From positions 1 to 64,000 of the forward strand of contig JAHLYQ010000031.1 of the NCBI GenBank assembly GCA_025127975.1: a DNA stretch of 64,000 nt. The letters are read 5' to 3'. The notes beneath the pieces were generated by a model. That model saw nothing but the letters and a program-made list of their open reading frames with translations, was not told the origin of the DNA and searched no databases. Positions within the stretch are counted from its first letter, which is position 1. Each line of letters begins with the position of its first letter. A program made the position numbers and the translations under genes. Positions 22,835 through 25,065 of the stretch are shown here, in pieces. This DNA is from Synechococcus sp. CS-1331. Lineage in GTDB: Bacteria; Cyanobacteriota; Cyanobacteriia; PCC-6307; Cyanobiaceae.

Positions 22835-22908
22835 GGGGCTGTAGCTCAGCCGGATAGAGCGACGGTTTCCTAAACCGTAGGTCGTGGGTTCGAGTCCCGC
22901 CAGCCCCG
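22835..22908 (+). tRNA. tRNA-Arg (anticodon CCT)
   Basis: A full cloverleaf folds: acceptor GGGGCTG/CAGCCCC, D arm GCTC/GAGC, anticodon stem ACGGT/ACCGT with loop TTCCTAA (anticodon CCT), and T arm GTGGG-TTCGAGT-CCCGC. The discriminator base is G22908 and no CCA is encoded. From position 22881 to its end the gene is duplicated 2156 bp downstream, which marks it as the integration site of a small island. Confidence 0.97.
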
Positions 22909-22909
22909 T
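22881..22909 (+). repeat. attachment-site copy within tRNA-Arg
   Basis: First copy of the 29-bp perfect direct repeat. It covers the T arm and 3' acceptor strand of the tRNA, begins GTCGTGGGTTCGAG and ends one base after the discriminator base. The flanking base differs on both sides from the second copy, so the match is exactly 29 bp. Confidence 0.85.
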
Positions 22910-23132
22910 TGTCCAAGCCCCCTGATTCAGCAAGGGCTCTTAAGGAAGAGGATCCTCGGGAAAGCGGCCTGGCTGTCTTCTCGCGTTAGGCAAACTGTTA
23001 TGGAAATTGGGTAGGGGCAAGCTCGAGTCGCGACCGACCGATCCGCTCGGCTCCGAGCCGAAGCAGCACCGCAGTGGTGGGCCAAACGGCGACGACGCTC
23101 CCCTGGCACCACTGCTGGACATCATCCCTCTG

Positions 23133-24125
23133 TCAGCAGAGAGATTGGGCGATGGCATTGCACTGCTGCTCCAGCAGAACCATGCGCTCCATCAGCTCGC
23201 TGAATGTCGGCACTTGGCCGCGCAGCATTCCAGAGGTGGTCATGGCTGCGTAGTCCGCTTCCAGCGCCTTCCGGCCGTTACCGGTTGGCACCAACTGCAG
23301 ATCTCCGCTGAGCGCTTGGAAGTAGTCGATCGGCGGCTTCCGCCAGAAGTCCTCCTTGTGCTGGGCCACCTCAATTGCGAGTTTCCGGTCGCCTATTGCC
23401 GTTTCTGCGATGCCTGCACTGGCCAGGCGATAGATGTCGTACCAGTGCCGGGAGTAGCGCTCGCCTTCGCCGCTGCCCCAGCTGCCTTTGCGGCAGGCGA
23501 GATGAATCGCCGCCGCCTTTTCCAGGAAGGTGCGCTTCGGGTCCATCACCAGGGGGTTTGCGGTTGGGAAAGCGAGCATGGGCAGGTGAGTCGCTGCCTT
23601 GCAGGTAATGGGCATGGCTTCATGCGGCTCGCCGGTGGAGTGGGCGCCAAACTCCAGCAAGACCGTAGGCCGCACATAGCCAAAGCTCCTGTCAGGAGCA
23701 GGGATCAGTGGCTGATAGTGCAGAACGATGGTGGGTGGTTGCCGGCGATCCGTTTCGGCAGCTTTCAGTGTTAGACCCAGAGGAACTGCGGCCGCGGCGA
23801 CCGCACGCTGGAGCAGCGGCAGCGGGATCTCCTTCACCCATTGCTTGAGCTTTCTGTCGGCAGCCTTGCGGCGTGCCTGGGCCTGGGTGGGGTTGGCAGC
23901 GGGGGACAGGTCAACCTCGGGCCAGAGGTGCTGAATGTTGAGGGTCAGATCGACGTCCTCGGAAAAGCGCTCGATCAGCCCATGGGCCTTGGAGAGCGAA
24001 GTGCCCCCTTTGAAGGTGAGGGAGGCGAGCAGCTGCTCGTCTGCCCCGAGGCTCTGCAGGGCCCAGACCACCCAGATGTCCTTCTCGAGGAGGTAGGCCG
24101 GCCAGCCGCTTTCGGAAGCAGCCAC
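23133..24125 (-). CDS. AbiEii/AbiGii-type nucleotidyltransferase toxin
   Basis: The 330-residue protein matches the AbiEii toxin family (DNA polymerase beta-like fold). The active-site signature is visible: FKGGTSLSKAHGLIERFSED followed by VDLTL, with the acidic pair expected to bind metal and nucleotide. The preceding LLEKDIWVVWAL segment is also typical. Family members transfer nucleotides onto tRNA ends or other targets, causing growth arrest. The start is GTG 24125, since a stop codon lies six codons upstream. The antitoxin-like gene ends 46 bp ahead on the same strand, the usual antitoxin-toxin order. The pair is the whole coding cargo of the tRNA-Arg island. Whether the toxin is active cannot be read from sequence. 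Confidence 0.85.
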   Translation of the reverse strand: MAASESGWPAYLLEKDIWVVWALQSLGADEQLLASLTFKGGTSLSKAHGLIERFSEDVDLTLNIQHLWPEVDLSPAANPTQAQARRKAADRKLKQWVKEIPLPLLQRAVAAAAVPLGLTLKAAETDRRQPPTIVLHYQPLIPAPDRSFGYVRPTVLLEFGAHSTGEPHEAMPITCKAATHLPMLAFPTANPLVMDPKRTFLEKAAAIHLACRKGSWGSGEGERYSRHWYDIYRLASAGIAETAIGDRKLAIEVAQHKEDFWRKPPIDYFQALSGDLQLVPTGNGRKALEADYAAMTTSGMLRGQVPTFSELMERMVLLEQQCNAIAQSLC

Positions 24126-24171
24126 CTCCAGGGCTTCTCGCTAATCGTCTGCCGCCAGGGAGAACCAGGCC

Positions 24172-24780
24172 TCAGCCACGCAGCACCTGCGCTTCTTGCT
24201 CGTTCAGCAGCTCCACCAGCCAGGTGGGCAGCTCGGCCCGCACCGCCAGCAGGGCGTCCCATTCCGGGGTGGGCAGGGCCTTGCGGAGCTTTGGCAGGGC
24301 AGCGCCGGCCTGATCGGGCCCCAGCCAGGCCAGGGCGCGGATCGCCTGGCCGGCAGGGCGATCGGCCAGTAGGAACTGCCAGCGGGGTGCCTGGCGCAGG
24401 CTGATCTCCTGCTTGCCGAGGCGATAGCGCTTGCGGCTCTTGGTGCGGCTCAGAAAGGTCTGCTGCACGGGCATCTGGGTGGTGAGGCCCAGGGCGTTGG
24501 CCGCGGCTACGCCGCTGCTCACCAGTTGCTCCCCCAGCTCGGTCTTGAGATGGGCCATCACCAGCTCGGGAGCCGGAGGGCGTGTCCCGAAGCGACTGCG
24601 CACCGGCAGGGCGTAACGGCCGCGCGTGATCTTCACCAGCTGGCCGCGGCTCGCAAGCCGGCGCAGGGACTGATCCACGGCGTCCCGCTTGCCGAGCGCC
24701 AGGAACTCCTTGGCCGCCAGCAGGCTTCCCTCAGGCCGGCGGCCTGCTGCTTCCAGGATTTGAGCACCGAGGGCGGTCAT
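24172..24780 (-). CDS. AbiEi-like antitoxin (DUF6088 family)
   Basis: The 202-residue protein starts with a winged-helix-like region (AKEFLALGKRDAVDQSLRRLASRGQLVKITRGRYALP), typical of DUF6088 / AbiEi antitoxins that bind DNA and repress their own operon. The middle shows SGVAAANALGLTTQMP and TKSRKRYRLGKQEI, also seen in that family. I used ATG 24780; the frame is open to 24906, but that extension would contain the inverted repeat proposed as operator. The toxin gene lies directly downstream. Autoregulation through the palindrome 34 bp upstream is inferred. Confidence 0.82.
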   Translation of the reverse strand: MTALGAQILEAAGRRPEGSLLAAKEFLALGKRDAVDQSLRRLASRGQLVKITRGRYALPVRSRFGTRPPAPELVMAHLKTELGEQLVSSGVAAANALGLTTQMPVQQTFLSRTKSRKRYRLGKQEISLRQAPRWQFLLADRPAGQAIRALAWLGPDQAGAALPKLRKALPTPEWDALLAVRAELPTWLVELLNEQEAQVLRG

Positions 24781-24813
24781 GGCGGATCTGGGGTGTCTTC
24801 TAGTGCACCGGCG

Positions 24814-24841
24814 TGTCAGAAGCGTACGCAAGTTTCTGACA
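24814..24841. promoter_or_regulatory. palindromic candidate operator of the AbiE pair
   Basis: TGTCAGAA (24814-24821) and TTCTGACA (24834-24841) are perfect 8-bp inverted arms separated by 12 bp. The spacer contains a second palindrome, GCGTACGC (24822-24829). The element lies 34 bp before the antitoxin start, where an autoregulating antitoxin would bind. No clear -10/-35 pair could be assigned around it. Confidence 0.55.
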
Positions 24842-25036
24842 TTCTGTCCATGGCTTTGGCGCTTCTGGCCCCTTTGCCGCCATGGGCACACCGCGCTGAC
24901 AGCCATCGCGAGCCCTGCTCGTGCAGGTGTACGCAGCAGAGGGGTGCATGACCTGCCACTTCTTCCGTCACCGGGTCGCCGCGGATGGCATCCCTGCGCT
25001 CACCTATGGGCTCCACTACGTCCACCACGAGCTTTT
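24842..25036. other. island right flank without a recognisable gene
   Basis: Between the candidate operator and the second attachment-site copy no reading frame resembles a known protein. A small hairpin, CCACGA (25025-25030) with TCGTGG (25038-25043), straddles the left edge of the attachment repeat. I see no integrase fragment here. Confidence 0.4.
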
Positions 25037-25065
25037 GTCGTGGGTTCGAGTCCCGCCAGCCCCGT
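25037..25065 (+). repeat. distal attachment-site copy (tRNA-Arg 3' fragment)
   Basis: Second copy of the 29-bp direct repeat, identical to 22881-22909. No D arm or anticodon arm precedes it, so it is a tRNA fragment and not a second tRNA gene. It stands 32 bp before the cytochrome b561-like gene. Confidence 0.85.

Follow-up and report, generated by a model that had tools for sequence, protein, structure and literature searches.

In this study, we analyse an insert at the tRNA-Arg(CCT) gene of Synechococcus sp. CS-1331, which lies in positions 1 to 64,000 of contig JAHLYQ010000031.1, a stretch referred to below as the window. The genome that holds the window, G000, is a draft of 47 contigs; other G numbers denote the genomes of relatives, and L numbers denote compared loci. 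The 3' end of the tRNA gene is present in two 29-bp copies that agree letter for letter, at 22881-22909 and 25037-25065, and the roughly 2.1 kb between them hold an AbiEii and an AbiEi gene, both on the minus strand, which are the sole gene pair recognised inside the repeats by Pfam and PADLOC. This framing had been described in the first-pass annotation of the DNA, and the identical copies and the profile matches confirm it. All ten repeated 20-mers on the plus strand of the 64-kb window come from the 29-bp pair, with no other direct repeat of at least 20 bp, and a chance repeat is therefore excluded. The features of the locus are as follows.

22381-22790, minus strand: RNase P RNA, upstream of tRNA-Arg(CCT)
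22835-22908, plus strand: tRNA-Arg(CCT), the integration target (attB) (ARAGORN; Rfam RF00005, 70.4 bits)
22863-22909, plus strand: left att core, 47 bp, from the anticodon arm to the tRNA 3' end
22910-22945, plus strand: terminator-like hairpin region in place of the native sequence downstream of the tRNA (seen by eye in the sequence)
22986-22993, plus strand: lone surviving TTAGGCAA arm-like site, 124 bp from the core start
23029-23073, plus strand: first integrase scrap, matching the G195 integrase at roughly codons 39-53 with 84.4% identity over 45 nt (blastn, tblastn)
23092-23129, plus strand: second integrase scrap, at roughly codons 143-156, with 82.5% identity over 40 aligned nt (blastn)
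23133-24125, minus strand: AbiEii-like nucleotidyltransferase toxin frame, 330 aa from GTG 24125 (Pfam PF08843, 4e-29; PADLOC AbiEii, 3.4e-89)
24141-24179, minus strand: leftover of the family-conserved toxin start region, closed by an in-frame TAG at 24143-24141 (comparison with 15 relatives)
24172-24780, minus strand: AbiEi-like antitoxin/repressor, 202 aa from ATG 24780 (PADLOC AbiEi, 3.8e-52; Pfam DUF6088, 8.5e-17)
24814-24841, strandless: predicted AbiEi operator, inverted repeat TGTCAGAA-N12-TTCTGACA (sequence match upstream of abiEi)
24945-25007, plus strand: small-ORF remnant, also beside abiEi in L266 and L267
25037-25065, plus strand: right att copy, 29 bp, the 47-bp core less its initial 18 bp, which include the anticodon arm
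25098-25586 (about), plus strand: cytochrome b561-like gene, outside the right repeat (Pfam PF01292, 9.8e-9)
25669-26001, plus strand: conserved 110-aa gene, directly 3' of tRNA-Arg(CCT) at empty sites

Stretches resembling the hairpin region were also seen by eye 3' of the tRNA in other occupied sites. The cytochrome b561-like gene is itself extra, since it lies between the right repeat and the conserved flank, is common to G195 only and, by DNA search, is absent at empty sites; related DNA is located elsewhere in G143 and G158. The small-ORF remnant was considered as a third gene of the AbiE system and set aside, being short and standing beside AbiE only in L266 and L267 among the compared loci.

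Occupied and empty sites in relatives

The tRNA query matched 197 of 201 family genomes, and the best 30 matches, one of them the window, were taken as loci together with stretches from chosen genomes. Seven of the nine same-genus genomes fetched have an empty site, at which the tRNA is followed by about 100-130 bp, the 110-aa gene, a 157-aa gene and glgP; the other two carry 4.0 kb (G183) and more than 7.6 kb (G195) between the tRNA and the 110-aa gene. Site-specific integration at tRNA-Arg(CCT), which had been proposed from the repeat, is supported by these empty sites together with relatives that carry attL, attR and attP arrangements. Empty sites in close relatives had been named beforehand as the test, and AbiEii occurs in only one of the 15 other genomes of the genus (G126, at tRNA-Ala). 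Moreover, a second att copy downstream of tRNA-Arg in genomes lacking the genes, which had been named as evidence to the contrary, was found in none of the stretches fetched from empty sites.

Across the family, the 110-aa gene lies within 384 bp of the tRNA in 24 of 38 distinct genomes (Cruz-8D1 aside), a non-random sample, and these 24 sites count as empty. It is not within that distance in the other 14; in three of them the sequence ended before the gene was reached, and that of G195 was found by DNA search. The integrase family was present in the examined stretch of one of these 14 occupied sites, that of G195. Short inserts without integrase are common at tRNA-Arg(CCT) (13 of 14 occupied sites), so that the retention of AbiE there is not shown to be special.

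In G195, whose RNase III is 98.8% identical to that of the window, the match to window positions 24780-26600 starts exactly at the right repeat, 62.4 kb from the G195 tRNA, and the right flanks are 97.0% identical over 532 bp and 97.4% over 975 bp (blastn). At the left end of this 62.4-kb island, four TAGGCAA-type sites and an intact 379-aa tyrosine integrase adjoin the tRNA, and its right end has two TAGGCAA-type sites and a copy of the 47-bp core. Among the proteins chosen for testing, the island contains terminase large subunit, primase, helicase, BrxL, DpdA, QueC and Rad52; the AbiEii genes of G195 sit elsewhere. The stretch G195:C1:1595200-1660600 (L129, L130, L194, L195) thus joins phage-type genes, BrxL and a DpdA/QueC 7-deazaguanine cluster in one island. 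At tRNA-Arg(CCT), Cyanobium Cruz-8D1 (L038/L254) carries an integrase that shares 86% identity with its G195 counterpart, and also a DUF3987 protein, AbiEii/AbiEi (75.5%) and Rad52. A possible tandem insertion was seen in L197 (G150; 3860 and 6247, reversed strand), where a second near-complete tRNA-Arg 3' part lies 2.4 kb downstream and is followed by another island-like left end.

Recombination sites and integrase remains

The 47-bp core is also the centre of an attP-like site of this integrase family in two IMG/VR contigs (L286, 3300044609_001915; L285, 3300044971_004948), which were found by searching viral_contigs with the integrase and whose own integrases are 91% and 90% identical. Both contigs hold the core without a tRNA gene, and six TAGGCA-type arm sites at -56, -44, +124, +136, +165 and +177 from the core start. 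This layout looks like that expected of attP, in excised, circular or tandem form, and the arm sites are putative integrase-binding sites. A search of viral_contigs for the exact core gave four stretches, namely the two attP-like contigs, one chromosomal tRNA (L287), and L290, where the chromosomal 110-aa gene comes after two arm sites and the core, which by its layout is an attR. To judge from the open-access papers searched, parts of this picture, such as the attP-like contigs with their integrase family and arm sites, may not have been published before. In L286 the attP-like site lies beside a 936-aa helicase/primase-like protein, and L285 and L286 also encode several proteins without a PHROG match.

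The right core of the window retains 29 of 47 bases, and one of the six arm sites is left, that at +124, an offset equal to that of the first of the four left arm sites in the attP-like contigs; a complete attL and attR with arm sites is absent from the window. In other islands, the exact repeats measure 46 bp in L250 and 47 bp in G195, both from the anticodon arm, 42 bp in L256 and 35 bp in L197.

That no integrase is visible, as the first-pass annotation had put it, is correct for an intact gene, but two scraps of one remain, at 23029-23073 and 23092-23129. A functional integrase gene is absent from the insert and intact in G195 and Cruz-8D1. Both scraps lie between the tRNA and AbiE, collinear with the G195 tyrosine-integrase gene and on the same strand. 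Local alignment of the scrap region with that gene scored 55, whereas the highest score among 1000 shuffles that kept base composition only was 36, and tblastn of a scrap against the integrase matched 13 of 20 residues (E 1e-4, for a small test set). With lengths of 45 and 38 nt the scraps are short, and their identity to G195 is only about 84%, compared with 97% for the flanks, and therefore the decayed element was not necessarily that of G195.

PF00589 identified three tyrosine recombinases in G000, none of them on the window's contig. This profile is ill-suited as a test of integrase absence, since the integrases of G195 and Cruz-8D1 score just 14 bits with it against a cut-off of 27.1; as it missed the G195 integrase copy, the G195 integrase itself was used as query instead. 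In this search of 27 genomes, the top match in G000 was 34% identical (C4:75442-76557, E 3.7e-30), with four others weaker than it, and full-length matches of 30-36% identity occur in many of the other genomes searched. With this query, no cognate helper integrase for the ends of the window's insert was found in G000.

The AbiE pair and its relatives

The start of AbiEi is most likely 24780 instead of 24906, because the longer frame crosses the predicted operator. The inverted repeat has one match in the window and none in 100 shuffles. Of 18 relatives, 14 carry its arms upstream of abiE with no more than one mismatch, and by analogy with AbiEi in the consulted part of PMC3985639 the repeat is predicted to be an operator. 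In the toxin frame, the in-frame TAG lies 12 codons past the start that is conserved in relatives, and none of the 15 relatives compared, three being left out, has a stop at this position. Counted along the conserved frame, GTG 24125 falls at the eighteenth-nineteenth codon, and the frame runs on from there for 330 aa. The activity of the window's AbiEii toxin is doubtful because of this stop near the conserved start, absent in the 15 relatives, and the idea of retention by toxin addiction is weakened by it. The AbiE pair, the last part of the island, is probably also decaying, unless translation from GTG 24125 yields a toxin that is only a little shortened.

As a lineage, the AbiE pair is under purifying selection (dN/dS 0.165-0.33). 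By NG86, comparisons of the window with chosen relatives gave 0.165-0.208 for AbiEii (eight comparisons) and 0.181-0.328 for AbiEi (seven comparisons), all of them pairwise values over whole lineages and not for the window's own branch. Selection on the lineage suggests that the pair was probably held on to for phage defence or via addiction. A PDB sequence search (queries lacking the first codon or two) gave no match, nor did an NCBIfam search.

With the window AbiEii as query, matches at E 1e-30 were obtained in 19 of 400 family genomes, G000 included. Relatives outside G000 are at most 88% identical; the closest AbiE loci, L266 and L267 (87%), also match the stretch upstream of abiEi, including the small-ORF remnant. 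Viral AbiEii relatives, at 11 loci, are 41-47% identical. G000 itself has a second AbiEii-family gene (G000:C28:103835-104506), with no tRNA in the 12 kb around it. A tRNA 3' end faces the toxin in 14 of the 18 relatives, at a distance of 156-7683 bp and in nine cases within 1 kb; among the remaining four, L265 has its tRNA in another orientation, and L264, L266 and L267 have no tRNA in the stretch examined. As the 18 loci are related, the 14 tRNA-facing cases are not independent events.

Thirteen AbiE loci with an Ala, Met, Leu or Arg tRNA were checked for integrase within 1.2 kb. The gene is intact in L253, L254 and L260 and reduced to scraps in L256, L257 and L259; in the other seven loci, which are all at tRNA-Ala, neither state was found. 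The three further sets of scraps lie between tRNA-Met and AbiE, and the three intact genes occupy the corresponding place. tRNA-Met is also given as a target of tycheposons, the islands considered in the comparison below. At tRNA-Ala, two short AbiE islands were found, L250 with 2.2 kb between the copies of a 46-bp exact repeat and L263 with 2.8 kb between the copies of a 45-bp repeat with one difference; the AbiEii of L263 is split between frames. No scrap of the G195 integrase family was found in either. Their full-length repeats without scraps imply that some such islands may differ in origin or still move. At the distal ends of two tRNA-Ala islands, no second att copy was found at up to nine mismatches in 45. 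L250 (11610-11750, minus strand) and L263 (near 8374-8475) also have in common a short peptide remnant beside the right repeat, SIREQAGKVKL.RRF.DGS, for which no family match was found.

Origin of the insert and comparison with known systems

It seems, with a probability that we put at roughly 0.84, that the 2.1-kb insert is the immobile wreck of a tyrosine-integrase island at tRNA-Arg(CCT), stripped to its AbiE pair. An integrase-bearing element would have recombined the 47-bp core, from the anticodon arm to the 3' end, with the tRNA gene, and this integration would have restored the tRNA and left a core copy at the right end of the element. Deletions may then have taken most of the integrase gene, sparing the two collinear scraps, and the middle of the element; at the right end, the arm sites and the initial 18 bp of the core copy may likewise have been deleted. 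In what is left, AbiEi is predicted to repress the pair via the upstream inverted repeat and to counter the nucleotidyltransferase-type toxin AbiEii.

The first-pass annotation had instead suggested mobilisation by a helper integrase, that is, a minimal non-autonomous satellite whose 2.1-kb AbiE unit is moved in trans when the integrase of a related element recognises its ends. The direct repeat and one arm site are still there, AbiE-only islands of like size with full repeats exist at tRNA-Ala (L250, L263), G000 has its three PF00589 recombinases, and the cognate integrase is carried by elements in G195, Cruz-8D1 and the IMG/VR contigs. However, the right core is 18 bp short, five of the six arm sites are missing, the integrase scraps indicate decay in place, and no identical unit was found at another site, AbiEii relatives outside G000 reaching 88% at most. 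The best match in G000 to the cognate integrase is at 34% and of a kind that is found full-length in many other genomes searched. The truncated right core (47 to 29 bp), the lost arm sites and this distant integrase match mean that a decayed, probably immobile remnant fits better than a helper-mobilised satellite, which, also in view of the scraps, was dropped as the leading view and which we now regard as quite improbable.

If the AbiE pair had instead entered an island that was decayed beforehand, through homologous or illegitimate recombination, the pair would never have been cargo of the element that left the scraps. This is improbable in our judgement, as the full element of Cruz-8D1 carries AbiE at the same tRNA and the toxin end faces a tRNA 3' end in most relatives (14 of 18), although the short contigs of the closest relatives, L266 and L267, show no tRNA next to AbiE, these two have the sequence upstream of abiEi with its small-ORF remnant in common with the window, and the AbiEii genes of G195 are located elsewhere. 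An assembly artefact at the 29-bp repeat is scarcely credible even for a draft of 47 contigs: both junctions lie within one contig, the match of the right flank to G195 starts precisely at the repeat, and the right copy is shorter than the core, whereas a collapse would yield one full copy.

With decay of an integrated island as the preferred reading, an intact element, attP-like and attR sites, an occupied sister site, an empty site and a wreck can be aligned at one tRNA gene, and the locus gives a picture, dated by relatives, of decay in a defence-carrying island. A wider idea, which we hold only tentatively and consider rather unlikely, is that AbiE outlives picocyanobacterial islands, the integrase being repeatedly gutted at tRNA Arg, Met and perhaps Ala while the neighbouring AbiE is kept, so that fixed AbiE loci result, and some tRNA-Ala units with full 46-bp repeats possibly still being mobile as two-gene units. 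If the tRNA-Met and tRNA-Ala pattern holds true in a controlled survey, whether toxin-antitoxin pairs outlast their carrier elements becomes testable.

Like tRNA-integrated tyrosine-integrase islands, including tycheposons, as the consulted parts of two sources describe them (PMC10872708; PMC11389934), the insert has a tRNA 3' end as target, a direct repeat of the tRNA end and variable cargo, and a tyrosine recombinase is present in its intact relatives; unlike them, the unit in the window is without recombinase and most sites. Tycheposons have a tRNA at one border, a tyrosine recombinase and a length of 4-200 kb, and cytochrome b561 is named among their cargo, in the part of PMC10872708 consulted. 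Set against that description, the 2.1-kb insert without an intact recombinase falls outside, and the 62.4-kb island of G195 and the Cruz-8D1 element would fit on the points of border tRNA and recombinase. The insert also resembles the defective ('grounded') mobile elements and proto-hitchers described in the consulted part of PMC11389934, in which gene loss leaves cargo and partial sites, and differs from them in being almost a toxin-antitoxin pair alone, with degraded att sites.

AbiE is described in the consulted part of Dy et al. (2014; PMC3985639) as a type IV toxin-antitoxin/abortive-infection system that can confer phage resistance and stabilise plasmids, and thus either effect could explain past retention of the pair. 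As in the AbiE described there, AbiEi lies upstream of AbiEii in the same operon with an inverted repeat upstream, and the window AbiEii has the catalytic GG-x15-DxD and the extra arginine: the motif hG[G/S]x15DhD and the motif II arginine, as given in that source, are present as GG40-41, R53 and D57-V-D59, with a lysine (K39) at the position that is hydrophobic in the consensus. Motif IV, +DxxD, is not literally present; the window has YDIYR and relatives mostly YDLDR, the D being kept and flanking residues changed. The window differs from the AbiE of that source, so far as the consulted part describes it, in the spacing and sequence of the inverted repeat and in the in-frame stop near the conserved toxin start. 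The titles and abstracts of the open-access papers found describe no AbiE island at a cyanobacterial tRNA.
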